Part shown: in pieces, positions 238 through 48,106 of the stretch | How positions within the stretch are numbered: position 1 is the first letter of the stretch | Layout: each line of letters starts with the position of its first letter | Assembly: GCA_033398695.1 (NCBI GenBank) | Contig: CM065804.1 | Coordinates: 52,173,501-52,237,500, forward strand | DNA length: 64,000 bases | From: Orobanche coerulescens | Taxonomy: Eukaryota; Streptophyta; Magnoliopsida; Lamiales; Orobanchaceae | Reading direction: 5' to 3' | Made by a program: the position numbers and the translations under genes | Notes under the pieces: generated by a model | Told to the model about the DNA's origin: nothing | The model's input: the letters and a program-made list of their open reading frames with translations, nothing else | Database searches by the model: none

Positions 238-1808
238 TGATAAGTGTCAGTTTTGTACACTTATCCATAGTTTGTATCGATAAAATTCACCCATAATTGA
301 GCTAGTCTACTCATTTTTTGCTTTTAATTAATTAGTTTTTTTTTATTTTATTTTTATCGGATGATGATCAGATTAAATAACTGATTTACTCAAGAAATAA
401 CATGTTTATTAAATATTCTCTTTGTTGAATTTTGATATATTCATGTTGTAGGGCTTTCCGAGATGAATTCGGCAGTCTTTCCGGATTCAAAATCAGAGTT
501 ATATATCAAAAGTTATCATCCGAAGAAGATTTGGGGGCAAAAACGCAAAGTCTGAGAAATTCTGGGCTGAAAACGTAACTATCAAAGCATCCAGTGAGCA
601 ATTTTATGAAGCCAAGTTACGGCCGTAACTACAGAATGTTACGGCCGTAAGTCACCCTAGTTACGGCCGTAACTCCTGAATGTTACGGCCATAACTCTTG
701 ACAGATTGTTATGATTTGTCTAATTTTTTATACTTTTTGTGTATTATTGAGGGGATGGCTGGCATTGATCCGATCTATTATAATAATGCTGGAGTTTTGG
801 AGCTATTAGATGACTTTAGGTGTATAAATAGACCCCTTAGATCCATCATCATTCATGATTCATCTTATAATTTTCCATTTTTTTTTGTAAACTTTTCTTT
901 TTGTGTGAAGAACATATTTGTGTTCTTGAGTGATATTTGAAGTGTGGTATAGCATATGTTGTTCAGAGAGTTTATTGCTTCTATCTCCTTTATCTACTAA
1001 GGGAGTTAGGATCAATTCTTTCTCTTGATTCAACTAATAATGACCACCAAAGCTTGTAATATGTATAATAAACCCTTAATGGGCTAAGTAACCTTTAGTT
1101 GAGATTATAAACTAGGTTAGTCATGTTATTTATGTTTGTATAAAAACCTATTGTGAATTACTTATTATTGTGTGTGATTTTCATTGTTTTAACAATCTTG
1201 ATTTATTTGGCCAATAAATGACGACATTTATGGTCTTCATATGTTTCGAAAGAAAATATGTTTGATTAGATCAAATGATCTTCATTCTAAATTGTTCTAG
1301 GGGATAGAAATATACCTCTAGTCCTTAGATGATTCTTTGAGTTATTTTCATAAATCCTAATGCTATGTATTGAAGCTAATCAACATAGAAATATAGTGGA
1401 TTGATTCAATATGTAAGGGGCGTTTTATAGTTCGAAAGAGAAACCGTCTTTTTAAGGAAAATCGAATCTACACAACATAATAAGTAAATTCATCTTATGA
1501 TCTCCTATACATCTTCTATAACTAATGACGAACTATGTTTGTAATCCCAACTATTTCATTTTATCATTAATCAATCTATTATTATTGCTATCTTTTTATT
1601 TCCTTAAAATAATTAGAACTAATATTGCATTTTCTTTGCAATTATTAAACCAAATTTTTTAATTGTGTGTTTCACTTATCTTATCTATAAAAATAGACTA
1701 ATAGTGTATAATTCAAATTATAACCAAACTTCCTTGTGGATCGATAAACCGGACTCAAAAAGTCCACTTTACTACTTGATACGATATCGTGCACTTGCGA
1801 TAGTTACA
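238..1808 (+). repeat. LTR of a Tat/Athila-type Ty3/gypsy element
   Basis: It starts TGATAAGTGTCAG after a polypurine tract and ends about 1808 in GTTACA after a tail ('ggactcaaaaagtcc', 'gtgcacttgcg') that I recall from Tat/Athila LTR ends. It has a clear TATA box (TGTATAAATAG, 821-831). No primer binding site or gag follows; the next bases belong to an unrelated reverse transcriptase. It may therefore be a 3' or solo LTR flanked by another element, or a recombinant. The right border is uncertain by a few bases. Confidence 0.6.
615..831 (+). promoter_or_regulatory. TTACGGCCGTAA palindrome array upstream of a TATA box
   Basis: Four copies of a 12-16 bp palindrome lie at about 615-630 (AGTTACGGCCGTAACT, perfect), 638-651, 659-674 and 682-695 (one base changed to ATAAC). 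They are separated by unrelated 8-12 bp spacers. The TATA box at 822-830 follows about 130 bp downstream. This places the array in the U3 promoter of the LTR. Its function is unknown. Confidence 0.7.
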
Positions 1809-2636
1809 CTAAGAACGTGTCACATGGCACCGCTCGAACTCGCGGAACTACGAAGGCAAATCAAGGACTTTATAGAAACAGGATACATACGTCCCTCCAA
1901 ATCTCCCTACGGTGCACCCGTACTATTCCAGAAAAAGAAGGATGGCACCCTTCGAATGTGCATCGACTACAGGGCACTCAATCGGATCACTATCAAGAAC
2001 AAATACCCAATACCATTGATAGCTGATCTCTTCGATCAACTTGGCAAGGCGCGGTACTTCACCAAACTTGACCTGCGCTCGGGGTACTATCAAGTACAAA
2101 TTGCTGAAGGAGATGAGGCCAAGACCACATGTGTGACTCGCTACGGTGCTTTTGAGTTCCTTGTCATGCCCTTCGGTCTCACAAACGCACCTACAACCTT
2201 TTGCACCCTCATGAACAAGGTACTTCACACTTTCCTTGATCAATTTGTTGTTGTTTACTTGGATGATATTCTGGTGTACAACTCGACTCTCGAAGAACAT
2301 ATTCAACACCTTAAGCAACTCTTCCAAGTACTACGTGAGAACGAGCTCTATGTTAAGACGGAAAAATGTACATTTGCCCAAGAAGAAGTTGAATTTCTCG
2401 GTCACAAGGTTAAAGGAGGCAAAATCATGATGGAGAATGCAAAGGTGGAGGCAATTCTGGATTGGCAACCCCCAACCAAGGTTCCAGAACTTCGATTATT
2501 TCTTTGCTTAGTGAACTACTACCGCCGCTTTATAAGAGGATACTCGGCCAAAGCAGCCCCACTGACCGACCTACTTAAGAAAAATCAAGTATGGCATTGG
2601 TCCAGCAAGTGTCAGCAAGCTTTCGAAGAACTCAAG
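1809..2636 (+). pseudogene. Chromovirus-type Ty3/gypsy reverse transcriptase, truncated both sides
   Basis: The frame is open across the fragment, with family homology from about 1816. In order it shows the start of the RT palm ([12 protein letters not shown]), [41 protein letters not shown], the catalytic YLDD at 2256-2267, FLGH, and the RT/RNase H connection region ([18 protein letters not shown]). These match chromoviral (Tekay/Reina/Galadriel-like) polymerases rather than Athila. Gag, protease, RNase H and integrase are absent. The terminating TGA is the first bases of the adjoining LTR at 2637, so the gene is cut there. The conserved, unbroken frame suggests fairly recent truncation. Confidence 0.85.
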
Positions 2637-4455
2637 TGATGATTCAAATTAAATTCTCGCAAGTGTACGAATCGCTTTTGTAGGAAGCGGTAAGTAACTC
2701 CGAGGTCGATCTCTCGAGGAATTGGAAACGGTTTAAAATTCGAAAATGTTCGGCAAATAGTCGAATGAACAAAAGTAAAATGAATTAAAATACATCATTG
2801 GTTCGATTGGATTAAAATTACTAGTGCGTAAAATTTAAATAAATTAAGTGGTAACAACACCAATTCGATCGTTGGATAAATGAGAGATAACAATAATGAG
2901 ATTGATATGGGAATTTAGATTCACCGACACACACGTAATCAATTATTAGTTCCGATACTTAAATAAATAAGGTTTGGAATTATCGATTGCTCACGATTAA
3001 AAGAAATCCGTTTGATGGCGGTAATCCTAAAAATCACGATTGTTCTCAACGAAAATTAAGAGATACTCTTTTGATTGGGATGAATCCCTAACTAACAATC
3101 AATTAACCGACTACTTTTGATGAGGTAAATCGTTAAAAGATCACGCGAAAAAGCTCGAGAACATTCACAATCGTTTCTTTCGGGTCATTTGATGGCGAAC
3201 ACCGATAAAAACCCTCGATTCGAATAATAATAACAACAATGAAAAAGGTTTGATGATCTAATTCAAAAGTTCTTAAACAAAGAACGAACAAGAGGCACAA
3301 TCCCAAACTTTTACCCAGAAAATCAAAAGGAACTAACAATCAAAAACATGTGTGTGGCTATATCTAAAAACCCATATGAAGTGTTTAGCCACACATGATT
3401 AATTCAACAACAATAATAGAAATTGAAGAACAAAACATGGTAAAAACTTCCCTTGTAAATGCCGAAATCGAACTCCCGATGAAGGTTTGATGATCTTCTT
3501 ACAAGAATTCACAACAAAATTATACAAGGAATTATTATATCTCACAAAAGTATTTTTCACTCCAAGAACATACAAGGAAGATGATGAAATAATCTCACTC
3601 AATCCTCATTTTTTGGTGTTTTCTCCCTCAATCTTGTGTTTTTCACCAAAATATCTTTTCCACAAGATAAGTGTATCTCCTCAAGGGTCACCACCCTTTG
3701 TTTTATAGCCAAAAGATGAAGAATAAGGCTTAAAGTTGTGCAAAAATGTCAAGGAAAGTGACATGAACCGAAAAGTGACACGGCCCGTGTCCTGGGACAC
3801 GGCCCGTGTCCTGGGACACGGCCGTGTCGCACTGCGCTGGATAAGAAAAAGGGTATCTGTCTTGAGACTCGGCCATGTCCCATGACACGGCCGTGTTGTA
3901 CTGCACAGGAAACTCAAATTGGCCGATCGTGACTCGGCCGTGACCCAAAAGGCACGGTCGAGTTGTTCTCATCCGGAAACTGCAATTCTCGCTGGAATGA
4001 GACCCGGCCGTGTCCCATGGCACGGCCGAGTTACCTGATGTGGCTCGAGTTGCCTGGTGCAGCCAAGTCCGGTTTTTGGTCTTCTTCGGCTTGATCCTTC
4101 GTTCTTGTATCAATACACCTCGGATTTTAGCATATGATATACCTTTTCGAAGCTAATTTCACGAGGAATTCATATCAAAGGAGAGCACATCTCAATTCGA
4201 AGTGGTGATTCTGGAATTTAGAAGATTCGACCGATACTGCTTCAATCTTTTGTCGTTTTAGGCCCCATTTTAGCTTTTGATCGTCATAGACTCCAATATT
4301 ACCTATGAAAGCGCATATTTCACCACAATCTTCGCTTGGTTACCTATAAATTAAAAACACAACATACCACGCATAAAAGAGAACAAAAATACTAAAAAGC
4401 AAACAAAAACACGACTAGATAGAACAAAATGAGTCGATCAAGAATCGACTCATCA
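2637..4455 (-). repeat. 3' LTR of minus-strand Athila-like element (Athila-M)
   Basis: On the minus strand it begins TGATGAGTCGATTC and ends GAATCATCA, giving TG...CA termini and a length of about 1,819 bp. The bases right of 4455 are a polypurine tract on the minus strand (GTTCAAGTTTGGGGGGGTT), which fixes this as the 3' LTR with its body to the right. The insertion point is inside the RT fragment (left flank TCAAG). The other LTR is not in the window, so no target-site duplication can be tested. Confidence 0.75.
3701..4035 (-). promoter_or_regulatory. TATA box with upstream ACACGGCCGTGT-type palindrome array
   Basis: The TATA box is GGCTATAAAA on the minus strand (3701-3710). Upstream in that orientation, about 3775-4035, lie around ten copies or variants of a CGGCCG-centred word. 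They include perfect GACACGGCCGTGTC, spaced GACACGGCCCGTGTC, and half-changed forms such as GGCACGGTCGAGTT and GACTCGGCCGTGAC. Spacers are 15-40 bp of non-repetitive sequence. Confidence 0.7.
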
Positions 4456-6052
4456 AACCCCCCCAAACTTGAACTTTGATCGTCCCGAGCAAATCTCTTT
4501 AAAATAACCATTCTGAAAAGGGGAACTCAACTATTAAAATACCTCAAAGGACCTCTTCGAAAATTTCATCAATACTCACAAGTAAAATAAGTCGAGTTCT
4601 ACAAAGTTTTCAAACCTCCGGGGTGCTTCCTTAACATCATAGTCCATACTTGGCAATATAAACCTCACTGGTCAAGTGTATTCACTCACTCTCAAAGTGA
4701 TATGGATAAGTATACGCTCGGAACTCATTCAATGAAATAAGGAACCCCATAGGCTTGCCAATCGTCTTAATCTCTACCACTGTTTTGTGCATGCAAAATT
4801 TTTGTGAATCAAAAAGGGCATTACTCGGCCTGAAATGTAGGCTTTGGTCGAGGTGGGATAAATATGGCTAAAGTGACTTGGCTCGAGCAATTTTTAGAAT
4901 CTAAATCACCATAGTCGCTTTAGAAGCTCAAGATTTTTCAGATTTGCTTCTTTCATCGCCTTAATTATGAACCACTTGCGACAAGCACTTTTGAAAGTGA
5001 AAAACGCAGCGTCACACCCTCCTTATTGCTCCGAATTTTTTTTTTGGCTTGGTTTGATTTAGGATCCGTTTTACGCGAATGTAAACGATGGGTCACATGA
5101 ATACACCCGGTTACTAGGATCACAATTACTTCCAAGCATACTCATATCTAAGGCAACCGTTTTACGCGAATATAAACATGGGTCACATGAATACACCCGG
5201 TTACTAAGTTCCCAAAAATAGCGGAGTAATTATTTTCATCATTTCAACACTCCCAACAATATGTATATCACCCAATATCACCACAATCTTTTGTATCCTT
5301 GTCAAAAAATAATTTCTAATTGCTCAAGTAGGAATTGAAGGATTATAGTAATGGAAAGCTCGATATGTGGATTAACAATGAAATATACAATTACCTCGAT
5401 TTGGTTTATTTAAGGAATGATCGAATGTCGGGTTGGCCAAAATCGAAGGGTTAAGATCAAAGGTGCCAAAAAAAATCATTTCCACTCAATTACACACACA
5501 CACGCTAGTAGTTTTGAATAAGAAACCAAGGCAAGTTCTAGAGTCTTAAATCAAGAATAACACTCGACAATGAAACTTGCATTTTAGAAAATGCACGAAG
5601 GCTCAATAGCTCACAAGTAGGTTTGTTCATACCTCCAAGATATTAAAACCACTTATTCAATTTCACACCCGTTTCGATTATCAACAATTTTTCCTCAACA
5701 AATTATTCTTGATTTGTATATCAAAACAACGAAATAAATCCCGAGGCATTCCAAAACCAAAAAATTCACACTTCAAAGTTTTCTTCAAGTTTGCGAAATA
5801 AAAAAACACCAAGTAAAAACACACCAAGTAAAAACTCACCAATAAAAAACACACCACAAATAAGTGCAAAATGTTCAAAACACACCAAAAATAAGCAACA
5901 AGCAAAATTAGTATCCGAAAACGAATAAAAACAAGAGTAATGAAGTATTTCTTGACCAATCCCCCCAAACTTGAATTAAAGAATATACGAACAAAGGGGG
6001 TATAGTATTTAAACAAAAGAATTTCATTGGTCAAGAAATACTTACAACCGGT
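4456..6052 (-). other. 3' untranslated region of Athila-M
   Basis: Non-coding region between the ORF-1-like stop (6053) and the polypurine tract (4456-4475, minus strand). It contains at least two copies, about 5045-5110 and 5155-5215, of a direct repeat. On the plus strand this reads GTTTTACGCGAATGTAAAC followed by GGGTCACATGAATACACC and CCGGTTACTA. The same repeat is at 25566-25760 in the 3'UTR of Athila-P. The arms GTTTTAC and GTAAAC can pair. No open frame of interest was seen. Confidence 0.6.
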
Positions 6053-6507: not shown

Positions 6508-6989
6508 TTGTAATATCCGCAATTTTCGATTTTTGGTAAATTTCTTTTTTCGTCCGGAGTCCGTTTTGACGACTCACTCATGACCGTTTCGTCATTTCGA
6601 GAATGATTAATTCTGCAGTTTTTGTCATCCGAGTTCGTTTCGGTATCGTTTTGCTGAGTTCCGAGCTTTTTAGCGACTTTTCCGCACTTGAGTTCGATTC
6701 TTGCGAATCTCGTCCATCATTGTTTGAGTTTCTCGTAAATTCATTTAATGTTATTATTCATTTTGCGAGCTTTGGTTTGGTGTTTCGATCGCGTATCGTG
6801 ATTTTCGGACGTTTTGGGCCATTTTCGTAATTTCCCAAAGTTTTGGGTAATTACTTCCGTTGTTGAATTCCGAGCTTTCCAGTGGTTGGAATTGTGTGTT
6901 CTCTTAGCCTTAGATTCGTCTTTGCGAGTACGTCGTAACCGTATCATCGATTCGTATTCGGGTTCGGGTTTCAGGGTCGTTCGGGCCGT

Positions 6990-7298
6990 CGGAGTTGGCC
7001 CCGGCCGAGTCATGGCCGGGCAACAGGCGGGCCGGCAGCGCCGAGTCACGGCCGGTAGTGCTCGCGGCTTCCGCCGAGTCACGGCCGGCGGTGCTCAGCG
7101 ATTCTGGCCGAGCGATCCGTGGGCGCGGCACATCTTTGGCAGGCGCGGCACACTGTGGCATTTTTCGGCCAAACCGATCAGTACGGGTGCCGCGGCACAC
7201 TCCGGCCGAGCCGCGGCACCGCCGACCAGGAGCCATTTTTGGACCTGTGCCGCGGCACACTCCCATTGGGCCGCGGCACAACTGCGCCTTATTTATGG
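6990..7298 (+). promoter_or_regulatory. GTGCCGCGGCAC palindrome array upstream of TATA-like box
   Basis: Perfect GTGCCGCGGCAC occurs at 7187-7198 and 7247-7258, with partial copies GCCGCGGCAC at about 7210 and 7270. They are preceded by a second repeated word (GCCGAGTCACGGCCGG, about 7003-7090, three copies). The TATA-like TTATTTATGG at 7289-7298 follows directly. The same arrangement is in the 3' LTR (13082-13178). The block has much higher GC and CpG than the rest of the element. Confidence 0.7.
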
Positions 7299-8245
7299 CC
7301 CCTGAGACGTTTTCTTCAGCCATTTTCACTCGGTTTTCTTCTCTTCCGCGGCTGGGGGTGTATTGATCATAGAGAGATGTTGTTGGACAATAAATCCTTG
7401 AAGTCTTGGAGTTCATATCATCAATCATCGATCCTATAACATCCTCCGATCTACCGAATCAGGTCAGATTTCCTAGAAATCTAGTTTTGGGGAATTTTGG
7501 TGTTTTGGTTGTTTTCATCCGTTTAATCCGATTTAACTTAGGATTATGATGGATTGATGATTATTTAGATGTATTATTTCATTTCCCTTGTTATTCCATG
7601 GTTGGATCGTATCGATTCGTTGTTTTGGTCGAGTTCTTGATCGACGCCTTGAAGGTGTCCGATAAAATGTCATAGAGGGGTTTTCGGGCGTTCTACGATT
7701 ATTCTTCCTCGTATGATCGATGATTTATTGATTATATGTTGTTAGGGTCGAATTCTTGTGAAGAACTCGAGTCGGAACCCTTCCGTTCGTTGTCTTCTTC
7801 GGGGCCGAGCTTCCCGGTCGAACCGTGTTCTTCGGAGCGTTTGGTAGCGGTTATTAAGGCAAGTATCTTATTATAAGACTTGTATCTCGTGAATAGTAAT
7901 TACGTATGATATGTATGACGATTTTTCTTGCCTCCGTAAATATGTTCCGTTTGAGTTGGTTGTGTTTTCGGAAATTTGAAGGCTTTGTGATAATAGTGAT
8001 ATATTGGTATACGTGTTAGGCGTTGTGCCATTTGTGCAGGATTGCGATGTACATATGAGATGGTTGTACACGTGTTTGTTCAATGTATTGTGTACCGAAT
8101 GTGTGTTATGTTGGTTAAGAGTCGTTGTGATGATCATGATGTTTGTGTTGTTTTGGTTTACATACTTGATTGTACATTTCGGTGTAATGTGGAATGGCTT
8201 GACATTTAATGATTATGAATTATGTCGTGTCGATGTGTGTGTGTT

Positions 8246-8685
8246 CCAGGTAGGGTCTGATGAGGCCTCTGGAGTTCGGTACATGATGTGTACGAACAAG
8301 GTGTGTGATCCAGGTAGGGTCTGACGAGGCCTCTGGAGTCCGGTACATGATGTGTACGGACAAGGTGTGTGATCCAGGTAGGGTCTAACGAGGCCTCTGG
8401 AGTTCGGTACATGATGTGTACGAACAATGTTGTGGCCGAGTAGGCTCCATTGAGGCCTCCGGAGTTCGGTACATGATGTGTACGAACAGTGTGTGTGGCC
8501 GGGTAGGGTCCGTTGAGGCCTCCAGAGTTCGGTACATGATGTGTACGAACAGTGTGTGTGGCCCGGGTAAGGTCCGTTGAGGCCTCCGGAGTTCGGTACA
8601 TGATGTGTACGAACAGTGTGTGTGGCCCGGGTAAGGTCCGTTGAGGCCTCCGGAGTTCGGTACATGATGTGTACGAACAATGATC
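8246..8685 (+). repeat. 63-64 bp tandem array inside LARD-P 5' LTR (7 copies)
   Basis: Each unit contains GTAGGGTCTGACGAGGCCTC, then GGAGTTCGGTACATGATG and GTGTACGAAC. I count seven units here. The 3' LTR has six (about 14137-14510), so copy number changed after insertion or during reverse transcription. The core GTACATGATGTGTAC is an imperfect palindrome. Confidence 0.85.
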
Positions 8686-9418
8686 GTGTAGCAGTGATTG
8701 TTCGGGTAACATTTTAAATATGGATCTCGGACTCATAATGATATATTATTTAGTATGCTTTGAAACGAGAATCAGGCTAAGGCCCTAATGTTTACGAAAA
8801 GGTTTTGTAAATTGGGACTCGAGGTCCAAAAGAATTTCTGCTTTAAAAATCCCCGAGATGATGTGTTCCTTTTCAAATATCTCTTACTTGAGTTCGAAAT
8901 TCTAAAACTTCTCGGGAACATTTTGATAATTGATTTACGTATTAAATTCGTAGTTGCTATTTGCTTGTTACATTTCGTATGGTTTGATACTTGCACTAGT
9001 AAAACAGTGGAGTTTTACTAACCCCGAGTATTCGGGGTGGATGTCCTGCTCAAGCGTCCGGTACATGCGGAGTTCGGGGAGCAACACGGGATTAGCACAA
9101 GGGGATGACGAGCTGCGATACTAATCAAGAGTTGAGAGTTGGTAGAGTTTAGTTGTATTGTTAGAGTTGATTCAGTCTTCCGCTGTATTATATTTCGACC
9201 CCTGTGTGGGTAATGTTGTTAGTCAGTCCTGTTGATAGAGTTGTGTGACCTCATCGGTCTGTGTGTTTATGTGTAAGTGACCTTAACGGTCTGTATTATT
9301 ATAATGTTTGACCCTGGTCGGGCAAGCATTTGGTTGTTTATGGACGTTTAGCCTGCTAGATCCTTGCGGAAAGGGTTTATGGCGTGTAATATTCCCATAC
9401 GGTTTTGGGGGTGTTACA

Positions 9419-12393: not shown

Positions 12394-15251
12394 TGTAATA
12401 TCCGCAATTTTCGATTTTCGGTAAATTTCTTTTTTTCGTCCGGAGTCTGTTTTGACGACTCACTCATGAAAGTTTCGTCATTTCGAGAATGATTAATTCT
12501 GCACTTTTTGTCATCCGAGTTCGTTTCGGTATCGTTTTGCTGAGTTCCGAGCTTTTTAGCGACTTTTCCGCACTTGAGTTCGATTCTTGCGAATCTCGTC
12601 CGAAACTGTTGTTTCGAGTTTCTCGTAAATTCATTTAATGTTATTATTCATGTTTCGAGCTTTGGTTTGGTGTTTCGATCGCGTATCGTGATTTTCGGAC
12701 GTTTTGGGCCATTTTCGTAATTTCCCAAAGTTTTGGGTAATTACTTCCGTTGTTGAATTCCGAGCCTTCGGGTGGTTGGAATTGTGTGTTCTCTTAGACT
12801 TAGATTCGTCTTTGCGAGTACGTCGTAACCGTATCATCGATTCGTATTCGGGTTCGGGTTTCGGGGTCGTTCGGGCCGTCGGAGTTGGCCCCGGCCGAGT
12901 CATGGCCGGGCAACCTGGGCCCAGGCCGGCACCGGCCGAGTCACGGCCGGTAGTGCTCGGCAGCTTCTGGCCGAGTCACGGCCGGCAGTGCTCAGCCTCT
13001 GGCCGAGCGGTCAGGGCCGCGGCACATGCCGGGCAGGCGCGGCACACTCGTGGCATTTTTCGGCCAAACCGATCGTACCGGGTGCCGCGGCACACTCCGG
13101 CCGAGCCGCGGCACACCGCCGACCACCGGGAGCCATTTTTGGACTCGTGCCGCGGCACACTCCCCAGGGCCGCGGCACTGCGGCTTATTTATGGCCCCGC
13201 AGACGTTTTCTTGACCATTTTCACTCGGTTTTCTTCTCTTCCGCTACGGGGTGTATTGATCATAGATAGATGTTGTTGGACAATAAATCCTTGAAGTCTT
13301 GGAGTTCATATCATCAATCATCAATCCTATAACATCCTCCGATCTACCGAATCAGGTCAGATTTCCTAGAAATCTAGTTTTGGGGAATTTTGGTGTTTTG
13401 GTTGTTTTCATCCGTTTAATCCGATTTAACTTAGGATTATGATGTATTGATGATTATTTAGATGTATTATTTCATTTCCCTTGTTATTCCATGTTTGGAT
13501 CGTATCGATTCGTTGTTTTGGTCGAGTTCTTGATCGACGCCTTGAAGGTGTCCGATAAAATGTCATAGAGGGGTTTTCGGGCGTTCTACGATTATTCTTC
13601 CTCGTATGATCGATGATTTATTGATTATATGTTGTTAGGGTCGAATTCTTGTGAAGAACTCGAGTCGGAACCCTTCCGTTCGTTGTCTTCTTCGGGGCCG
13701 AGCTTCCCGGTCGAACCGTGTTCTTCGGAGCGTTTGGTAGCGGTTATTTAGGCAAGTATCTTATTATAAGACTTGTATCTCGTGAATAGTAATTACGTGT
13801 GATATGAATGACGATTTTGCTTGCCTCCGTAAATATGTTCCGTTTGAGTTGGTTGTGTTTTCCGAAATTTGAAGGCTTTGTGATAATAGTGATATATTGG
13901 TATACGTGTTAGGCGTTGTGCCATTTGTGCAGGATTGCGATGTACATATGAGATGGTTGTACACGTGTTTGTTCAATGTATTGTGTACCGAATGTGTGTT
14001 ATGTTGGTTAAGAGTCGTTGTGATGATCATGATGTTTGTGTTGTTTTGGTTTACATACTTGATTGTACATTTCGGTGTAATGTGGAATGGCTTGACATTT
14101 AATGATTATGAATTATGTCGTGTCGATGTGTGTGTGTTCCAGGTAGGGTCTGACGAGGCCTCTGGAGTTCGGTTCATGATGTGTACGAACAAGGTGTGTG
14201 ATCCAGGTAGGGTCTGACGAGGCCTCTGGAGTTCGGTACATGATGTGTACGAACGATGTTGTGGCCGAGTAGGGTCCGTTGAGGCCTCCGGAGTTCGGTA
14301 CATGATGTGTACGAACAGTGTGTGTGGCCGGGTAGGGTCCGTTGAGGCCTCCGGAGTTCGGTACATGATGTGTACGAACAGTGTGTGTGGCCCGGGTAAG
14401 GTCCGTTGAGGCCTCCGGAGTTCGGTACATAATGTGTACGAACAGTGTGTGTGGCACCGGGTAAGGTCCGTTGAGGCCTCCGGAGTTCGGTACATGATGT
14501 GTACGAACAATGATCGTGTAGCAGTGATTGTTCGGGTAACATTTTAAATATGGATCTCGGACTCATAATGATATATTATTTAGTATGCTTTGAAACGAGA
14601 ATCGGGCTAAGGCCCTAATGTTTACGAAAAGGTTTTGTAAATTGGGACTCGAGGTCCAAAAGAATTTCTGCTTTAAAAATCCCCGAGATGATGTGTTCCT
14701 TTTCAAATATCTCTTACTTGAGTTCGAAATTCTAAAACTTCTCGGGAACATTTTGATAATTGATTTACGTATTAAATTCGTAGTTGCTATTTGCTTGTTA
14801 CATTTCGTATGGTTTGATACTTGCACTAGTAAAACAATGGAGTTTTACTAACCCCCGAGTATTCGGGGGGTGGATGTCTGTTCTGCGTCCAGGTACATGC
14901 AGGTTCAGGGGAGCAGTCACAGGATTAGCACAAGGGGATGACGAGCTGCGATACTAATCAAGAGTTGAGAGTTGGTAGAGTTTAGTTGTATTGTTAGAGT
15001 TGATTCAGTCTTCCGCTGTATTGTATTTCGACCCCTGTGTGGGTAATGTTGTTAGTCAGTCCTGTTGATCGAGTTGTGTGACCTCATCGGTCTGTGTGTT
15101 TATGTGTAAGTGACCTTAACGGTTTGTATTATTATATTGTTTGACCCTGGTCGGGCAAGCATTTGGTTGTTTATGGACGTTTAGCCTGGTAGATCCTTGC
15201 GGAAAGGGTTTACGGCGTGTAATATTCCCATACGGTTTTGGGGGTGTTACA
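12394..15251 (+). repeat. 3' LTR of LARD-P
   Basis: The LTR is 2,858 bp and near-identical in outline to the 5' copy. The palindrome block lies at 13082-13178 (GTGCCGCGGCAC) and the six-unit tandem array at about 14137-14510. Differences from the 5' LTR concentrate in the GC-rich block and array. It is followed by the TGCAT duplication at 15252-15256. Confidence 0.88.
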
Positions 15252-16183
15252 TGCATGAAGACCATGCGATGTTCATAGTCCATGATATTCATCACCTTCA
15301 TCACGGAGATTGAGAGAAGCATATTTCCAGGAAGGGGGGTCCTCCGATCTAACGAAACACCGAAGTGTAGTGCGATAGGGGTAATCAAACCCCCTATCCA
15401 TATCTCCCCCTTAGGCTTTGTGGCGACATCCTCAAAATGTTCCGCTACCATGGCCCCGGTTGCCGGAATTGAGTCGTCGAGCATGTGAGTCAGGATATAT
15501 AACTCCCGTAGTGAAATGGGCCTGCTTTCCTTTCGGCCATATATGGTATTCGCAATCACCTTGTGTAGGTATCTGAGTACGGGATTGCGAATGTTCGATC
15601 CTTTAGCCGATCTTGCAATGTAATATCACGCCTCACTCCCCGGGTATTCTACCATGGATCTCCAGTAAGTTTCACAAGCAAACCGATTTATCGGGTAATG
15701 GCCCTCGTGTCTTGCATGATAAATTTCCTTCAACTGGATGATAGTCAGCGTCTCTTCGTTGTTGTTAATCCGGAATGTCATTTCGGTCAGTTCTCGTGTC
15801 ACCGGATCTCTTCTTACAGTTAGAGTACTGAGAAACTCCATCGTCAGACATTTATAAGTCGGCCATTGTTGAGTCATCATCCATGCCCAATGCACTCTTC
15901 CAAGGAATTTCATCACATCTTCCCTTATCCCCATTGCAATCATGCATTCGTCATCGGGACACCTTGTAGGGAGCATTTTTTCTGTCCCAGCATTTCCCAC
16001 CTCTCATATTGCGCTTCAGGTAGATTGATTCCATAAGATTCCGGAGTCTCCACAGCCCTTTGAATAGCATTTCTTGCCGGCTGCACTTGTTCCCCGCCAT
16101 TCCTACTCCTTCCGCGTTGAGCATTTCCTCGTCCTCTTCCTCGTGCAAAAGAGGACGATGCCGATTGAGAACGTATTCCTCCC
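15252..16183 (-). pseudogene. ATHILA ORF-1-like protein, N-terminal and central part (Athila-M)
   Basis: On the minus strand an Arg/Gly-rich stretch (ARGRGRGNAQRGRSR, about 16145-16100) leads into a domain shared with the intact relative at 23219-24829. Matching segments are MGIREDVMKFLG with LTMEFLSTLTV (relative: LTVEFLSTLEV), and IWIGGLITPIALHFGV (relative: IGIGAFVTPIAEHLGV). The frame shifts near 15985 and a stop separates the two halves near 15626. The gene resumes at 6507 after the LARD-P insertion. No initiator ATG is evident. The function of this family is unknown; it lies where other Athila elements have an env-like ORF. Confidence 0.7.
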
Positions 16184-16475: not shown

Positions 16476-16540
16476 CTTGATTTCGGAGAAATTGAAGAAA
16501 GAAAAAAAAATTAAACCCTGGTCCCAATTCGTCCGATTTG

Positions 16541-17581: not shown

Positions 17582-17639
17582 ATTGGTATCGGAGCCATAC
17601 TCCAATACGCGGCTTAACATCCGAGGAGAAAAAGATCCA

Positions 17640-23208: not shown

Positions 23209-23218
23209 GAACTTTGAA

Positions 23219-31247: not shown

Positions 31248-34200
31248 TGTAACACCCCCAATCCGCTCAGGGATATTACACGCCGTAGAACCTTTCCTCA
31301 AGGATCTACCAGGCTAGTAACAACATGACACATCTCGACAATGCCTTTAAGGCTAAAATGACTCAGTAGACCGATTTGGCCTTTCAATAAAACATACAAC
31401 TCGATTACAATACAAGCCCATGCAGGGGTCGAATACAACATACTCCCGTACAACGGGCAAAGAATACTGCAGCGGAAAATAAAATATAACTAAACCAATC
31501 ACATCATACGGATCCTCGTGTGATTAGTATCGTTCATATTTCATCATCCTTCGTGCCGAACCTGTGTTATGCTCCCAAACCTGAATGCAAAAACAGACAT
31601 CCACCCCCCGAATACTCGGGGGTTAGCAAAACTCCACTGTTTTGCTAGTGCAAGTACAAGTGAAAATTACGAGTCATACAATTCACATTCCACGAATAAC
31701 AATAACCAGGAATCCTCAAATATCCAAACGAAATGAAAAGTACTTCCCGAGGCAAGAGTTTAAGAAAACATTCCAAAACTGAAAAATCACAAATTAATGG
31801 AAATAATTTATAAAACAGTTTAAAATGCCATCGAGAGTTTTAATAGAAACAATTTAGGATTATCAAATCCTACTTTTAAAAACCCAAAAGACGAAAGGGG
31901 TCACCGCCCCAAAGATTTACTTCCCGTAAAATGACCTTTACCAAACCGTTGGGATTTTAGCCCCAAATCTCATCAACTCACAATACACTAGAACGACAAC
32001 AAGGTTCGTCTTCCAATATCAAAATCCACAATTAAAGGATTTAACACAAACAATAAAATACTCTAGTGCCATCCTAGCCAAGTAAGCCAAACGAACAACA
32101 TACCTCTTACACACTTAGTCGATGCATGCAATCATGAAAACCGTTCAAAAGCACTCATTTCCAGAAATGCCAATAATCCAAATCACATTGTAAAATGCAC
32201 CACAATTAACCGCGGACCCACAGCTTCGTGGACCCCTACCGAGACCCCGTCGGATCTAACCCGTAGTGGTTAAAAGCAAGCTCGCGGTTCCACAGCTTCG
32301 TGGAGCCCTACCAAGACCCCGTCGGATCTAACCCATAGTGAGCATACACATACACGTTACTCATGCAATACTAACATGCTAAGAATGTAAGTTCATCAAG
32401 AATACTGACTAGGGATGGCCACTTATCTGACACCATTATCAAACTCTTCAAAACACAATAACAAGATTAAACATGGAATACACGATTCCGTAACTTTAAA
32501 CAATAGGGGTATCATCAAAGCCTTCAACATTCAAAACAATCAAATCATAATCAATTTTCCAAAACACACCGTTCACAAAACACACGCGTTTTGAAAGAGA
32601 GCCTTTAACGAGGCCAAAACAATTCTTTTGAAAATTCATTTGAAAATAACCGAAAAAACACACCACGATGACCACCGATCATCATATCCCCAAAACTAGA
32701 AGCGTATGAACAAGTTAATTGCCTCGAATAACCACAATGCGGAGAATCGACCGAAGTAGGTTGGCACGAACCGACTACGAACCCGCCGACTCCACCGAAC
32801 GCCAACTCGCGACAATAAACTACGAAGGACAATAACAACAATGAAAATGAATTCCATAGCACGACTCAAAGCCGTTGAATTCAAAGAATAATGACGAAAG
32901 TTCAAGTGTTTCCCCCAAAACAGCCAAGAACATGATTCGTCCCAACAAAACACGAAAACGGAATTCCAAGTTGAAATATGGATATACAATCCATAGAATA
33001 TGTTTAACAACATCATTTAACCACAATCGATCCATCAAAAACGGATGGAAAACGAGATCGAGAACAAATCCCCCAAAAAGTCGATTCGAAAGAAATAAAG
33101 AAATATACTTCGATTCGACGAAGAACAATGGGATTAAATGATGTTAAACACAATAATACTACCAAGATTAATCATACCCATCATGAATTAATCAACAATA
33201 CCAAACGAATCGGACAAAAACGCAAAAACCCCCAAACTCAAGAATTTAGGTTTCTAAGAAGAGATTACCTTGATTCGCTGGATCAAAGGATGATAACGGA
33301 TGATTAATCGATGATATGAACTCAAGAACTTCGTGGATTTGTTGTTCAACAACATGGCTTCGCCTCCTCCGAAGCACCAGCCGCGGATCGAAAAGAAAGG
33401 AAATGAAAAACGAGTGAAAATGAGGCTGCTCAGTCATATTTATACTGGTGCAGCCTAGTGTGCTCTAGGCTGCCGAGCTAGCGTACACTATCGGCCCAGG
33501 CCGCAATCCAGAGACACTGCTCGGCCAGGTAGCGCGCGCAGCCTTCCGGCCGTAGCGTGCGCTACCTGCCGGTCGTAGCGTGCGCAGTGTCCGGCAGTAG
33601 CGTGCGCTACCTGCCGATCCACCGAGTCCAGTACCCCACTGCCCTACTGCCTCGGCCCGCTAGCGCGCGCAGCCAACCGGCCGTAGCGTGCGCTGCCTCC
33701 CGGCCGTAGCGTGCGCTACCTTCCGGCCATAGCGTGCGCTACGCCGGTTCTTGCCACACACGTCCGGACGGTGCCCGCAATCATCCGGCCAGAACCCGTA
33801 ACCGTTCGGCCAGTCCCGCAACCGTCCGGCTAGTGCTCGACCACCAGGGCTCGACGACTCGATTTCTGAAAACGTACGGAACGAACACGACGAAAAGTTC
33901 ACGGACAACATCAACGACCCGAAATGAAAACATAATGCAATAATTAATCATACGCGACCAAGAAAAGGGTCGAGACAACAAATACAGATACGAATACCCA
34001 TAACTTTAAGGAAATTACAAAATGGCCCAAAACGCCCGAAAATCACGATACGTGATTGAATAACCAAACCGAAGTTCACAACACGTCTAACAAATTTAAA
34101 CGGACTTACGGGAAACTCGAAACAGCAGTTGAGAACGAGATTCGCAAGAATCGAACTCAAGTGCGGAAAAGTCGCTAAAAAGCACGGAACTCAACAAAAC

Positions 34201-34338
34201 GACACCGAAACGAACTCGGATGACAAAAAGTTCAGAATTAATCATTCCCGGAATGACGAAATGGTCATGAGCGAGCCGTCAAAACGGATTTTCGTCGAAA
34301 AAAAGAAATTACCGGAAATCGAAATTATAGGTATTACA
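31248..34338 (-). repeat. 5' LTR of LARD-M
   Basis: It is 3,091 bp, on the minus strand TGTAATACC...GGGGGTGTTACA. A two-copy repeat of about 68 bp (32217-32340, CACAGCTTCGTGGA) sits where LARD-P has its 63-64 bp array. TATA is CCAGTATAAATATGAC at about 33433-33448, with palindromes upstream at 33530-33745. Confidence 0.85.
33433..33745 (-). promoter_or_regulatory. GTAGCGTGCGCTAC array upstream of TATA in LARD-M LTR
   Basis: The near-palindrome GTAGCG-TG-CGCTAC and variants (CGTGCGCAG, TAGCGCGCGCA) occur about eight times between 33530 and 33745. They are often joined to CCGGCC. TATA (minus CAGTATAAATATG) lies at about 33435-33447. The word is unlike the GTGCCGCGGCAC word of the related LARD-P LTR. 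Confidence 0.7.
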
Positions 34339-35616
34339 ATATATTTCTCGTTGATTATTAATATGTGTGCATATTGTAATATTATAATAAGCAAATAATA
34401 GTTATTCACGAATAATAAGATTATTCAAATGTCACTGGTCCAATCACGTAGAGTGAAGACTCAAGTGATTAATGTACTAGTATAGTTTGATTGATAACAA
34501 TTGGATGATTATGCGCATGGTACGGATCAATCTTATCGGTATTAGTTGGAGAACGCAATAATAGATAGACCCACATTGTAATCACTACATGAAAATATCA
34601 TAAGTGGATCTCAATATAAAATTATGTCAAGAAATCATTGAACCTGATATTATCATAGAGTCCAACATGATAACTGTAAAGCCTTGACGTAATCCAACTT
34701 AATATGAAATATGATGATCATAAAAGGTTAGCGATGAGATTAGTGGGAGTCATGTAGAGGGAAATGAATAATCGAGATGGAGATTTGTCCCTCTCTTTCA
34801 GAAGAGAGATATCTGCTGGGCCCCTCGATAACTAGGACGGAAAGAGATGCATGACCATACTCAAATGAAGAGTCATTTGATTCAATGTGTCTACTTAAGA
34901 TCGAGAAAGCATTTCAACTTAATAAGTATGACAGTTTCCATGACTTAGTTCAAATATGATATTGCGGGATTTAGTAAGGTATTAAATAAATACCAACATA
35001 ATATAAGCCTTTTGGGTCACACATAAGACAATTAAACACAAGTAAAAGTAATTAATATAACATTAGATATTATATTTATTAAGAAATTAAATAATTAGTA
35101 CATATAATATTAGATATATCATTGGATATTAAATTTATTAAAAGATTAAATAATAAGTTATATATAATATGGGATATTATATATATAGTATTATTTAATA
35201 AGTTGTGGGGTAACTACAAGAAAAATGGACCATCAACTGCAAGAATCTGCTGCCCCTTCTTCAGTCCAAGAAGTCCCGATTAGATCATCTTATGTTCTTC
35301 CCTTAGTTGATCTTGATCAACAGTACAATCCTTCTAGCAAGGAATCATCTATTTTACTGTTTATTAATATTATTCATAAGGATCTAGCAATTCGACATGT
35401 GCAATTACTCGTATGTGGATCACCGAAAGAGAAAGGTGACTTTCATCAGCTTCTGGTCCGGATCTAAACCTGTTCTTCGAATTAAGATAATTCGACGAAG
35501 CGTTATTAAATCAATTAAATTACTGCATGAAAATCCTCTTCCTGAGTTTTTTGTTTTTATTATTCTGCTGCATTTCTGCTCATATTCGATGTATTAGATA
35601 CAAGTAAAAACTAACA
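34339..35616 (+). repeat. Ty1/copia LTR (5'), left border unclear
   Basis: The right end CTAACA (35611-35616) is followed by TGGTATCAGAG (35618-35628), a tRNA-iMet primer binding site. The sequence is AT-rich. A frame at 35225-35467 has no recognisable domain and is probably chance. The left end is hidden by LARD-M at 34338; I cannot find the TGTTAG start. Confidence 0.6.
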
Positions 35617-36207: not shown

Positions 36208-37537
36208 CACTACCAAAATTCACATTTTAGCCGACGACACGTAAAAAAATGGCCGACGAATTTCATTATGGTTTAGCCGACGACTTGATCTGGGTCGTCG
36301 GCTAAACCCTTTTCGAAAAAAAATGGGATTTAGCCGACGACCCAGATCAAGTCGTCGGCTAAATCTCTAATTTAAAATTATATATAGTCCATGGAACACC
36401 AACACAATATTGTGAGTTGCTAATTTCAGTTGCTACAATATTGTGACCTTGTGAAAAAGATCAACCCGGTTCTTGGAAACCCCTTTGTGTATTTCTTGAG
36501 TTTGTGTTGCTACTTTGAGTTGTGCTAGCTGGAGTGACGAAGGTTTCTACCGGTTGTTATAATCACCATTTCGATTAATTAAGGTATTTTAATGTATTTT
36601 TTATTGTAATTTCGAAACTTTGTATTATTCATGTTGTAGATTCGAAAGCTTTTCTGTAAAGATTAATTTCTGTGATGATAATCATTAAGATTAATTGTTG
36701 TGATTCCATGATGGACTATATGATGACGCTGACTCAGACTATTACTCAGGCTGGACTGCAGGCACCTGCTCCACCGCCTTCTCTCTTCAGACAGACCCCA
36801 TCTTCACAGCCTCGTGACGAGGATCTAGAGGATGGTGGTAACCCTTCTACTTCTACATTTGGACATTTAGATAATTTTGGTAGTGGATTGTAGTTGTGTT
36901 GTTGTAGGACTCTTGTATATTTATATTTGTGTTAGAATTGTGTAAGTGATTTTGTTGACGCTACTAGTATGTTGATGAAATTTATGTTCGTGAATGTGTT
37001 GTGCGTTGTGTTGTGTTGCATATAATGTTGGGCATATTATTGATGGTATTAGTTGAATGTGTTGTGCGTTGATTGTTGTTGATAATGGGAGCTGGTGTAT
37101 AAAAATTGCAGGTGCAAAAAAACAGGTTTTGGGATCCCAAAATCTGAATTATTTTTTTTTATATTAGGTTTTAGCCGACGACCTTTAAAAGTCGTCGGCT
37201 AAAGTATATTATTTTTTGTTTTAAAAAAAAAAGTTTCAGCCGACGACCGTGCAAAATGTTGTCGGCTAATGTTTATATTTATTTTTTTTAAAAAAAACTT
37301 TAGCCGACGACAGTTTCCTCGGTCGTCCGCTAAAACCTTAAAAATTTAGCCGACGGAAAAATTTGTTGGCTAAAGTTGGAAGTTTAGCCGACGACTACCA
37401 AAAAAGTCGTCGGCTAAACCTTGGCCGACGAATATCGGCCGACGGTTTTTTAGCCGACGACTGAGGGGATTAGCCGATGATATTCACCTTTAGCCGACGA
37501 CTTAAAGTCGTCGGCTAAACCCCCGATATTGGTAGTG
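36208..37537. mobile_element. Non-autonomous CACTA (En/Spm-type) transposon
   Basis: The termini are inverted, CACTACCAA...TTGGTAGTG. Both ends hold a dense set of direct and inverted copies of TTTAGCCGACGAC / GTCGTCGGCTAAA (36224-36362 and 37170-37520, about 15 copies), as expected for subterminal transposase-binding repeats. The length is 1,330 bp and there is no transposase gene. Flanks are TTA on the left and TAA on the right, so a clean 3-bp duplication is not seen. It lies in the copia leader. Confidence 0.8.
36675..36893 (+). pseudogene. Possible tail of a CACTA-encoded protein
   Basis: This 72-codon frame inside the CACTA-type element has a Gln/Pro-rich end (TQTITQAGLQAPAPPPSLF) and an acidic Ser/Thr-rich tail. 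That composition resembles the last exon of plant En/Spm TNPA-like proteins. A splice acceptor could lie upstream but I cannot place it. Function unlikely; a weak call. Confidence 0.35.
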
Positions 37538-40202: not shown

Positions 40203-40255
<53 letters not shown>

Positions 40256-42529: not shown

Positions 42530-42975
42530 TCAACGAGAATATCACCGACATGATAAACTCCACACAAGATCAACAAAGAACCAACAACGGACGAGAATAC
42601 CATTGATATGGTAAACCCCAACAAGATCGAAAAGGGATCAACGACGAACGAGAATACCAACGACAAGGCAGACTCCAAACATGATCAATAGAGGATTAAT
42701 AACGAACGGAAATACCAACGATATGGTGAACTCCAACGAGATCAATAAGGATCAATGACGAACGAGGTTACCGACGATACGATGAATTCCAAACGAGATT
42801 AATAAAGTTCGATAATGAATGAGAATACCAACGATATGGTAAACTCCAACATGATCAATAAGGTTCGATAACAACCGAGAATACCAATGATATGGTAAAC
42901 TCCAACAAGATCAATAATGTTCGATAACAACCGAGAATACCAATGATATGGTAAACTCCAACAAGATCAATAAAG
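42530..42975. repeat. ~60-70 bp tandem array
   Basis: About seven degenerate units contain GAATACCAACGATATGG and TAAACTCCAACAAGATCAAT. The last units are nearly identical (42840-42970), while the left ones are diverged. No open frame is maintained. Confidence 0.75.
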
Positions 42976-46273: not shown

Positions 46274-46926
46274 ATTAGATCAGATAAGTTCATCAGGTCA
46301 GAAGACTCCAGATCAGAGAAGATTAGTTGGGACAGAGAACTTCATCTCAGAGAAGTTACATCAGAGAAGTCCGACATCAGATAAGGATGACTGTACTAGA
46401 TCAGATAAGTGATCATCCAAGTAATCCAGTCCATATCAGCATGCGTGGAAAAGTCAATAATCACGGAAAGTCACATGCAGGCGTAGAGAGACAGACTGGA
46501 GAGATTCCCAGAAAAGCAAATGAATTAAATATTCACCGAGACCCACCACTGAAGACTTAAATCATATTATAATCTAAAGTTTCGGCGCCACAAGATGAAA
46601 GTCTTCACAATGGTCGGAAATGGGTTAAAATAAGGGAATCCAGCCTTGCAACGTTCGGAAAGAAAAATAATGAAGTCTATTTCTCCAACGGACGGATTTG
46701 TTACAGGAATTGCAACAGATATGAAGGAAGCTCAAGGATCGACATCTATAAATACCTAAAGATTGGAATTGAGCAAAAATACGATGCGAACGACACTTAC
46801 AAGTGAACAAAGAAATCAAAGCAAACAAAGTGAACAATAGCATCGTAAAGAGCAAGAGTTCAAAAGTTCTTATTTGAAGAAGCTCTTAGTTGTAGAAGAC
46901 AAAACACTTGTGTCTTTAAACCTGAG

Positions 46927-48106
46927 TGTTGTAGTAATATCGGTATTTGCGCCGTTTGTGCGGAAGGGTAAATATAAAGTGCGAAAATTAAATGGCACAC
47001 GGATTTATAGAGGTTCGGCCAAACGTGCCTACGTCCTCTATCAATGTATCTTTTTCTATAGGTTCAAGATCAAAACCTTTGCACCTCTATTCTATCGATC
47101 GAGGGATTACCGTTACAAGCTCGTCTTCTATCGGTCCGAGTAAAACCATTTTTCCTTTTCTATTGGATAAGGAATCAACCACTCTAGCTTTATATTGGTA
47201 CTAGATAAACCTCACTAAGATAGTGATTGTGATTCTAACAATGCCATATCCTTGATCCTAATAACACTGAATCCAATCTTATGTTTTCTTTTTCTCACTC
47301 GTGTATGATTTGTGTATAACACTCAATCACTCTAATTTAAGCTCGAGAACAACAACTATAATGTTTACAATGATATCTCAAGTGTATATGAATTGCTCAA
47401 TGTTGTTGTATGTATTGATACCAACTCATTTGGTATTTATAGCCTTCTTCCACAAACTAGCCGTTACTGCCAGTTGTTTATTAGCATGCTCTAGGCTGAC
47501 TTCCTTAGTGTGCGCTATTGCGTATATTTGCCTTAGCGTACGTTATGTACTGTTACGTACGTTAACGTCTTCCATTTTCAGTCCAATGGCTTCTGTCCTT
47601 CACAGTTAGCGTACGCTAACAATTTCTTGTAGCGTGCGTTAATCATGCATCATTGCATGCGTCATATATCCGTTAATACTTTTTGACTTGTAGCAGATTC
47701 TCCCCAATGGATTGATTGACTTGATTCAAACTGATATTTAGCATGCGCTAAATATCATATCTTGTGTGCGCTAAGATGACTTCAATGCATACGTCATTCT
47801 GTGTTTGAATTCTTTTTACAACGGTAATATGGGCTCGATAGCGTGCATTAATCCTTATGTGTAGCGTGCGCTATCCTCATCAGGTAACTTCACTTCAGGT
47901 TACATCAAACTCATCTGATCTGCAACCGGGACCCATTAGCGTGCGCTAACCTATATATCTAGCGTGCGCTAGCTTTGTATTTTGTCCAGCTTTTTGCGTC
48001 TTTGATTCCTTCGTCGTTTTGCTTCGCCTCTTTGTTGTTTTGTTTTGTTTAGCAACTTAATCATCAAAACACTTATTTATTAATATGTGGAATAATTATT
48101 CCAACA
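46927..48106 (-). repeat. Inserted LTR related to the TR-GAG LTR
   Basis: On the minus strand it starts TGTTGGAATAATTATTCC and ends ATATTACTACAACA (1,180 bp). The bases beyond 48106 are a minus-strand polypurine tract (AAAAAAGGGGAGAT) and 30-40 bp resembling the TR-GAG 3' interior, so it is a 3' LTR with a truncated body. It shares 'gtgttttgatgatt', 'aaagaggcgaagc' and TATA context with the TR-GAG LTR. CTGAG occurs at 46922-46926 and again at 48353-48357, a possible but unproven duplication. Confidence 0.7.
47436..47975 (-). promoter_or_regulatory. TTAGCGTACGCTAA / TAGCGTGCGCTA array upstream of TATA
   Basis: A perfect 16-bp palindrome GTTAGCGTACGCTAAC lies at 47605-47620. Variants occur at about 47495, 47510, 47533 (TTAGCGTACGTTA), 47553 (TTACGTACGTTAAC), 47629, 47745, 47765, 47840, 47865, 47938 and 47960. 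TATA (minus GGCTATAAATACC) is at 47432-47444. Both the TACGTACGTA word of TR-GAG and the AGCGTGCGCT word of LARD-M appear here as variants. Confidence 0.7.

Follow-up and report, generated by a model that had tools for sequence, protein, structure and literature searches.

We analyzed arrays of short, CpG-containing near-palindromes, here called boxes, in a 64,000-nucleotide stretch of the Orobanche coerulescens genome (GenBank assembly GCA_033398695.1, contig CM065804.1, positions 52,173,501 to 52,237,500; hereafter the window), which is plant DNA with nested long terminal repeat (LTR) retrotransposons. Most of the arrays stand upstream of a TATA box. In the 3.65-Gb assembly that contains the window, one 12-bp word recurs at a fixed pitch and in register with TATA, and it is shared by retrotransposons of the copia and gypsy superfamilies. 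The arrays of the window are listed below. The names LARD, TR-GAG, Athila-M and Athila-P come from a first-pass annotation of the window; these and the other element names are provisional labels.

615-696, plus strand: LTR from about 239 (putative Athila type), four boxes AGTTACGGCCGTAACT with centres 22 bp apart; TATAAATA at 823-830.
3777-4032, minus strand: Athila-M 3' LTR, nine boxes, mostly in pairs 18-20 bp apart, of the types AACTCGRCCGTGCC (left) and GACACGGCCGRGTC (right); TATAAA at 3702-3707.
6998-7280, plus strand: LARD-P 5' LTR (6509-9418), GCCGAGTCACGGCCGG repeats and then six boxes TGTGCCGCGGCACA; TTATTTAT at 7289-7296.
12888-13179, plus strand: LARD-P 3' LTR (12394-15252), an array identical in kind to that of the 5' LTR.
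16674-16993, plus strand: TR-GAG 5' LTR (16541-17584; Sirevirus type), ten boxes TTAACGTACGTAA; TATAAATA at 17034.
19787-20106, plus strand: TR-GAG 3' LTR (19654-20697), the same ten boxes as in the 5' LTR; TATAAATA at 20147.
20879-20977, minus strand: Athila-M internal cluster, two boxes with the LTR words, then TATAAAAAGG at about 20893-20902.
20989-21070, plus strand: two Athila-P words at the edge of the protease reading frame of that element (20916-21992).
22283-22563, plus strand: Athila-P internal cluster, GCCTATCGGCCGATAGGC words upstream of ATHILA open reading frame 1 (ORF-1; 23171-24826, PF03078).
26542-26637, plus strand: Athila-P 3' LTR, two boxes GCCTATCGGCCGATAGGC; TATATAAA at 26743.
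28294-28307, minus strand: LARD-M 3' LTR fragment (28276-28902), one box left.
33455-33742, minus strand: LARD-M 5' LTR (31247-34339), ten boxes GTAGCGCACGCTAC, the last centre 16 bp from TATAAATA at 33444.
47481-47972, minus strand: LTR-46.9 (46927-48106; Sirevirus-type relative of TR-GAG), eleven boxes TTAGCGCACGCTAA and one TTAACGTACGTAA; TATAAATA at 47441.
58971-59182, minus strand: leader of a copia element, absent from the first-pass list, eight boxes that match Athila-M in words and pair geometry.

The words reported in the first-pass annotation were found where it had placed them and, as it had noted, cluster upstream of TATA in the window. It had also proposed a comparison with dinucleotide-shuffled sequence. 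In a word-blind scan (CpG-containing inverted repeats with arms of at least 5, a spacer of 0-2 and copies within 25% mismatches, in 400-bp windows), 24 of 637 sliding windows had at least five CpG-dyad copies, compared with a maximum of four in dinucleotide-shuffled tiles (n = 3,200). All 24 were on arrays already annotated: the Athila-M LTR, both LARD-P LTRs, both TR-GAG LTRs, the Athila-P internal cluster, the LARD-M LTR and LTR-46.9. The LTR at 238 (Athila-238) scored 4 and the Athila-P LTR, with its two words, less than 3. When 11 regions were shuffled singly, with word count and dyads scored separately, the word count did not reach significance in Athila-238 (p = 0.19; dyads, 0.04) or the Athila-P LTR (p = 0.26; dyads, 0.06); it gave p = 0.03 in one small internal region and the floor value of 0.003 in the other eight. 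Dyads alone were not significant in both TR-GAG LTRs, the LARD-P 5' LTR and the Athila-P internal cluster. There was no clear excess of dyads 3' of TATA in nine LTRs (0-7 observed versus 1.6-5.9 expected).

Several details of the original description did not hold. Exact palindromes are few (3, 2, 2 per LARD-P LTR, 1 per TR-GAG LTR, 2 in the Athila-P LTR, and 1), the majority of the box copies in the window being imperfect, and the word GTAGCGTGCGCTAC differs from its own reverse complement and so is no exact palindrome. Copy numbers of 4-12 per LTR apply to several LTRs, and the Athila-P LTR has only two. A TATA box follows most arrays, not all, since LARD-P has TTATTTAT, a non-standard TATA, and the Athila-P internal cluster has no clear TATA.

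The Athila typing of the LTR at about 239 is putative and draws on the first-pass annotation and on likeness to the start of the Athila-P LTR. The Athila-M internal cluster has a third, weak copy (three mismatches) just downstream of TATAAAAAGG, and it probably belongs together with pieces of ATHILA ORF-1 (PF03078) at 15626-16003 and 15256-15625, past the inserted TR-GAG. The Athila-P internal cluster has five words at no more than 6 mismatches of 18, and its 12-bp core occurs in eight copies within 25%; the ORF-1 of Athila-P is an open frame of 552 codons, and none of 7,998 scored candidates was a protein relative of ATHILA ORF-1 at E 0.001. By position, word clusters precede ATHILA ORF-1 in two of the three Athila-type elements, and the third shows an LTR only. 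The copia leader lies downstream of the 5' LTR of its element, which ends at about 59483, and the gag of this element is at 57546-56770 on the minus strand; its 2-kb LTRs (about 52201-54250 and 59483-61472) have no scan window with at least three CpG-dyad copies. The GC content is above 0.5 in LARD-P, LARD-M, the Athila-M LTR and the copia leader and 0.39-0.49 in the other arrays, and the observed-to-expected ratio of CpG ranges from 0.87 to 1.76 across 12 array regions.

Box centres in the window are spaced mostly 23-24 bp apart in TR-GAG, LTR-46.9 and LARD-M, 22 bp in Athila-238, 20-21 bp in LARD-P, where the boxes form three pairs, and 18-20 bp in Athila-M and the copia leader; the gaps that separate groups are longer. 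In TR-GAG the spacers are unrelated, as are the 9-bp spacers of the four LTR-46.9 pairs that stand at exactly 23 bp; the gaps in the LARD-M 5' LTR are 23, 23, 23, 63, 22, 23, 23, 51 and 23 bp. We pooled the neighbouring gaps of seven arrays, using one LTR per element and leaving out the 3' copies of TR-GAG and LARD-P, the LARD-M fragment, the internal words of Athila-P and Athila-M, and the Athila-P LTR. Within 17.5-24.5 bp, a range picked after looking, there were 35 of 52 gaps, compared with a mean of 13.5 and a maximum of 26 for random placement (20,000 trials). Taken singly, three of the seven arrays (LARD-P 5', Athila-238 and the copia leader) were not significant (p = 0.09-0.16).

The carriers had been described as unrelated families, each with its own word. 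Two pairs of them are in fact related. LARD-P and LARD-M are 83.5-86% alike at the LTR starts and 86-87% alike in their insides; the LTR start and the stretch after TATA align, and the array region between them hardly aligns. TR-GAG and LTR-46.9 align piecewise at 75-82%, with boxes at homologous places but of a different word (TTAACGTACGTAA versus TTAGCGCACGCTAA), and LTR-46.9 also holds one TR-GAG-type box and one hybrid. A private word per family was rejected, as words cross families both in the window and in the genome: TAGCGCACGCTA is common to the otherwise unrelated LARD-M and LTR-46.9, and Athila-M words also occur in the copia leader (4 counted versus 0.04 expected in a shuffle cross-count). 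The claim that gypsy and copia carriers share a promoter architecture was borne out, and genome-wide the same word and pitch precede genes of both. The observation in the first-pass annotation was thus partly confirmed, and its interpretation is partly supported.

The word and its pitch extend far beyond the window. Exact pairs of the form TAGCGCACGCTA-N2-32-TAGCGCACGCTA numbered 268,370 genome-wide (134,940 + 133,430), compared with 0 + 0 for the reversed control. Pairs with 33-63 bp between the two words numbered 239,985 (control, 0), many of them enclosing a middle box. Another CpG dyad of similar shape, ATGCGCACGCAT, gave no pairs genome-wide, there were four matching stretches in 257 Gb of prokaryote contigs, and no relatives were found in viral contigs. 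On the basis of the shuffled tiles, the reversed controls, the other dyad and the prokaryote contigs, we rejected a composition artefact. Among the first 100 pairs listed, 41 were at 23 bp and 37 at 24 bp, with 73 distinct spacers and a mean pairwise spacer identity of 0.29.

The genome was also sampled with twenty 10-kb tiles at round coordinates, and four held-out tiles were fetched afterwards. There were 29 stretches with at least four copies of some CpG dyad, in 16 of the 20 tiles, and seeds of the TAGCG-NN-CGCTA, TAACG-NN-CGTTA or TTACGTACGTAA kind were present in 23 of these stretches. At least five CpG-dyad copies were found in 29 of 500 non-overlapping 400-bp pieces, compared with 0 of 5,000 shuffled pieces. 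A 12-bp degenerate pattern detected 265 boxes in the 20 tiles (27 when read backwards), 250 of which were in clusters of at least four. Neighbouring gaps of up to 140 bp (n = 228) were exactly 23 bp in 102 cases and 22-24 bp in 141. The held-out tiles had 36 boxes versus 3 backwards (one tile had none and one had two), in three clusters, and 16 of their 27 gaps were 22-24 bp. Over all 24 tiles, when only distinct spacers were counted (those less than 75% alike, in gaps of at most 60 bp), 63 of 99 gave a pitch of 22-24 bp and 48 a pitch of exactly 23 bp. Two stretches (L011:5401-7000 and L015:6101-6800, tiles being designated by L numbers) held CpG dyad arrays with other words (GTTTCACGAAAC and CGAGTGACTCG) and no fixed pitch, which are possibly a different phenomenon.

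The boxes are also in register with TATA. Searching 10-40 bp from a box, we found 19,541 box-to-TATAAATA places genome-wide and none for the control. Of the first 100 such places listed, 57 were at 15-19 bp and 41 were at 36-40 bp, which is one pitch further; some TATA boxes contribute two of these places, one for each of their boxes. A TATA within 8-70 bp was present for 18 of the 26 clusters in the first 20 tiles, at distances of 17-20 bp (nine), 27-28 bp (two), 40 bp (one), 47-49 bp (five) and 64 bp (one). In the held-out tiles one of three clusters had a TATA, at 18 bp. Box clusters also occur away from TATA: in tile L019 a repeat has, at 26-194 and 5787-5955, a second box cluster with no TATA close by, some 600 bp away from the TATA that belongs to the other array of this repeat.

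When the 400 bp downstream of the arrays were compared, 18 oriented clusters fell into nine groups unlinked by blastn, one including TR-GAG and LTR-46.9 and another the LARDs. There was direct LTR evidence, as paired repeats or a primer binding site, for six of the nine groups (0, 1, 2, 3, 4 and 7), and neither was found for groups 5, 6 and 8. Primer binding sites follow TGTTACA or CAACA and were present after the arrays in L012, L019, L020 and L023; further matches, in L018, L019 and L024, are shorter and were regarded as chance. Pfam searches of ten ORFs near arrays detected copia gag, integrase and reverse transcriptase in L022 (two ORFs), a copia-type gag in L020, gypsy gag or protease in L016 and L023, and zf-RVT in L009, and four ORFs had no match. 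In L022 the gag is 2 kb from the array and neither a primer binding site nor a second LTR was found, so the copia link there is weak; for the TR-GAG type it is firm. In TR-GAG a stop codon at 18648-18650 interrupts the Sirevirus-type gag (parts 17490-18647 and 18651-19178), the second part of which has weak coiled-coil-like matches.

The box itself is 12 bp long with sharp edges, and the flanks carry near-zero information (the search pattern partly dictates the core but leaves the flanks free). The logo of the half-site reads TARCGY and the main word is TAGCGYRCGCTA, with a CpG in each half-site. The outer arms co-vary within boxes: 206 of 250 are symmetric, compared with a mean of 191.1 in within-array permutations (p = 0.0002). 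The centre is polar, with a CA:TG ratio of 83:11 in 18 arrays in element orientation, 11 to 2 in one oriented held-out array, and 19,541:5,647 before TATAAATA genome-wide; this polarity is a bias, and a strict orientation rule was rejected. Longer gaps are likely phased with the DNA helix, on moderate evidence. Gaps of 30-140 bp in the tiles (n = 57, within-group repeats removed) are periodic near 10-10.5 bp, with nR2 values of 12.0 at 10.0 bp, 13.0 at 10.25 bp and 11.2 at 10.5 bp. The listed long gaps (32 of 100, picked by eye) bunch at 51-54, 59-65 and 70-75 bp (R = 0.63), and, grouped into seven similarity clusters, they gave R = 0.83 (p = 0.0037).

We propose, with a probability of roughly 0.6 and from sequence evidence, that the arrays serve in double-stranded DNA as docking places for a dimeric factor, probably encoded by the host and probably sensitive to methylation. 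The sequences themselves establish the word, the pitch, the register with TATA, the use by both superfamilies and the symmetry of the arms; the protein, its dimeric state and host origin, gating by methylation, and activation are inferred from them. A sequence-specific nuclear protein would bind each near-palindrome as a dimer, and boxes stacked at a pitch of 23-24 bp, the nearest often 17-18 bp from TATA, would hold the bound dimers in constant register relative to the basal transcription machinery, and so drive, rather than repress, retrotransposon transcription. A dimeric factor, suggested as a possibility in the first-pass annotation, is consistent with the dyad, with the constant pitch and with the register to TATA. 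With a CpG in each half-site, methylation could block binding in silenced copies and spare young or reactivated ones. Copia and gypsy families would use the same word because one host factor serves them, and the other words of the window (the CGGCCG types and GTGCCGCGGCAC) may be dialects read by further factors, whether from the same family or a different one. CGTGCG boxes of the brassinosteroid type were weighed as a possible match. NAC sites, described in the parts of PMC4081100 compared as having a CGT[G/A] core, the forms TTNCGT[G/A] or T[G/A]CGT and a palindrome CGT-N7-8-ACG, resemble the boxes in the CGT[G/A] core, and of the words only the TTACGTACGTAA dialect, which contains TTNCGTA, fits those forms. 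They were rejected as the main word: TAR rather than T[G/A] or TTN precedes CGT, and the spacing in CGTACG differs from CGT-N7-8-ACG.

Several observations weigh against this proposal. There was no TATA within 8-70 bp in 8 of the 26 clusters of the first 20 tiles or in two of the three held-out clusters. A strict symmetric dimer does not predict the CA:TG orientation bias. The co-variation of the arms was not repeated in the held-out tiles (25 of 28 versus 25.5 in permutations), where there was too little variation, seven held-out gaps show no helical phasing, and periods from 10 to 11.5 bp fit the long gaps equally well. Finally, in most of the repeat pairs compared the boxes are no better kept than their surroundings. 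Six repeat pairs from the tiles, treated as LTR pairs, had 30 differences in 866 positions of boxes and 119 in 3,800 between the first and last box (61 in 1,795 in the remaining sequence); 13 of the 30 box changes were CpG transitions. The two TR-GAG LTRs differ at 3 of 130 positions in boxes, 2 of 190 between boxes and 8 of 724 elsewhere. Better conservation of boxes after insertion was therefore not seen in these pairs, though it was seen in LARD-P (3 of 80 in boxes versus 13 of 77 in the rest of the array). Because boxes diverge as fast as the stretches between them, the copies seem mostly to decay freely, like methylated dead copies, and any selection would act mainly on active source copies.

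It is unlikely, in our estimate, that the palindromes instead act in RNA, with hairpins in read-through or genomic RNA feeding small-RNA silencing and the arrays being a by-product or a host handle. All ten arrays tested fold more stably than dinucleotide shuffles (60 each; z = -2.2 to -11.5, compared with 0.0 to -2.8 for six controls), so the folding potential behind the hairpin role suggested earlier is real, and maize Sireviruses offer a precedent, a palindromic cis-region for which secondary structure is predicted and to which many small RNAs map (Bousios 2016, cited in the parts of PMC10760457 compared). However, low folding energy is expected from any palindrome array, and the two weakest z values (-2.2 and -2.3) overlap the controls. 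Arrays upstream of TATA are present in RNA only via the 3' LTR or read-through, and hairpins require neither a 23-24 bp pitch nor a fixed TATA distance nor polarity, so that they leave the pitch and the register unexplained.

We give similarly low odds to the arrays being a by-product of tandem duplication and module exchange, in which slippage would multiply a unit of about 23 bp, and recombination or template switching would carry it between LTRs, without selected function. The spacers in LARD-M are alike, and by eye the pairs of the Athila-M LTR and of the copia leader are similar outside the words as well, a point in favour of exchange in their case. An LTR motif of RLG_Quinta has been proposed as acquired from a copia element (PMC11302176, in the part compared). 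Masking the boxes left few letters and hence low sensitivity; of 17 arrays compared in this way, only those of group 0 matched one another, and a single 22-bp stretch was common to groups 1 and 3. Against duplication, arrays of different groups are otherwise without a match, word and pitch are kept in listed pairs whose spacers are unrelated, the pitch is coupled to TATA, and TR-GAG and LTR-46.9 have different words at homologous places. Either convergence or exchange may account for the sharing. Least probable is that a retrotransposon or other mobile element encodes the factor, which would then serve many families in trans and perhaps counter silencing. Some proteins of mobile elements, such as VANC and TNPA, are known to bind arrays of short motifs containing CpG, and the window's LARDs and TR-GAG, in which no pol was seen, would need factors in trans anyway. 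Against this, copia and gypsy genes are preceded by the same word, and a Pfam search limited to selected ORFs of the window revealed no candidate for DNA binding.

The window contains other repeats. The downstream part of both LARD-P LTRs has 64-bp tandem repeats in 6-7 copies (8236-8682 and 14129-14512), and there is a 56-bp tandem repeat of about eight copies at 42532-42973. Repeats of TTTAGCCGACGAC at 36272-36386 and 37170-37311, inverted and direct, resemble a small inverted-repeat element.

Short LTR boxes that bind host factors are familiar from the repeated activator boxes of Tnt1 and Tto1, which are family-specific; we know of no genome-wide shared pitch for them. Work published by Bousios and colleagues in 2016 reportedly concerned one copia genus in maize, with the emphasis on small RNAs rather than on spacing or cross-family sharing. 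The first-pass annotation knew no named system of this kind, but one exists: the palindromic repeated motifs (RMs) of Sireviruses. In the parts of that report compared (Bousios et al. 2010, PMC2829016), RMs are palindromic, CpG-rich and of high copy number, form a CpG island, lie in the upper half of the LTR shortly upstream of TATA, have a CGG-CCG core (Tnd-1 excepted) and differ in word between elements, with further copies before the ENV gene. They were reported as Sirevirus-specific relative to 30 classic Ty1/copia elements, gypsy being outside the set; the symmetry of Tnt1 box I is also mentioned there.

The arrays described here likewise consist of high-copy CpG near-palindromes followed shortly by TATA, in the window and in the 18 tile clusters noted above. 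RMs have at least eight copies per element; the counts per LTR here are 10 in TR-GAG, 11-12 in LTR-46.9, 10 in LARD-M, 9 in Athila-M, 6 in LARD-P, 4 in Athila-238 and 2 in the Athila-P LTR. TR-GAG also has the polypurine tract arrangement of Sireviruses, with five copies of AGGGGGAG at 19198-19644 followed by AT and then the TG of the LTR, and LTR-46.9 has AAGGGGAG-AT-TG. The Athila internal clusters before ATHILA ORF-1, which is only putatively envelope-like, resemble the RMs before ENV. In contrast to RMs, the arrays are not restricted to Sireviruses, occurring in Athila and LARD elements and, as the word, before gypsy gag or protease in L016 and L023. The CGG-CCG core is absent from TAGCGYRCGCTA and from the CGTACG of TR-GAG, whereas the Athila words have CGGCCG. 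The compared parts of PMC2829016 hold no fixed pitch, per-box TATA register or word common to two superfamilies. In the compared parts of Cruz et al. 2014 (PMC4029996), Del gypsy LTRs have a variable CpG-rich 5' part with CpG islands, which the eudicot Del group lacks, and the string 'palindrom' is absent from the text of that paper. Published text was searched with six of the words, and of 10 papers containing one of them the 8 listed do not, by title, concern retrotransposons. In the open-access literature searched, judged mostly by listings and with few subscription papers, there was no report of one word, pitch and TATA register common to copia and gypsy elements of one genome. The kind of array is thus already known, and the sharing of word, pitch and TATA register by copia and gypsy elements is the new part.

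Retrotransposon promoters are usually described family by family, whereas here unlinked groups share word, pitch and TATA distance. Tentatively, and at somewhat less than even odds, a large share of the retrotransposons of this genome may use one code, a single 12-bp CpG dyad with a helically meaningful pitch and a fixed TATA distance, taken up independently or by exchange by copia, gypsy and non-autonomous derivatives. If so, a single host factor, gated by CpG methylation, would reach promoters numbering on the order of 10^5 (extrapolated from 26 clusters in 200 kb), and changes of dialect at homologous positions, such as TAACGTACGTAA to TAGCGCACGCTA, would record a change of factor. If one factor reads the word, its purification with a short probe would identify a master switch of the transposons of this genome, and both the spread of transposons to fill 3.65 Gb and the methylation of the two CpGs of each box as a lock would become testable.

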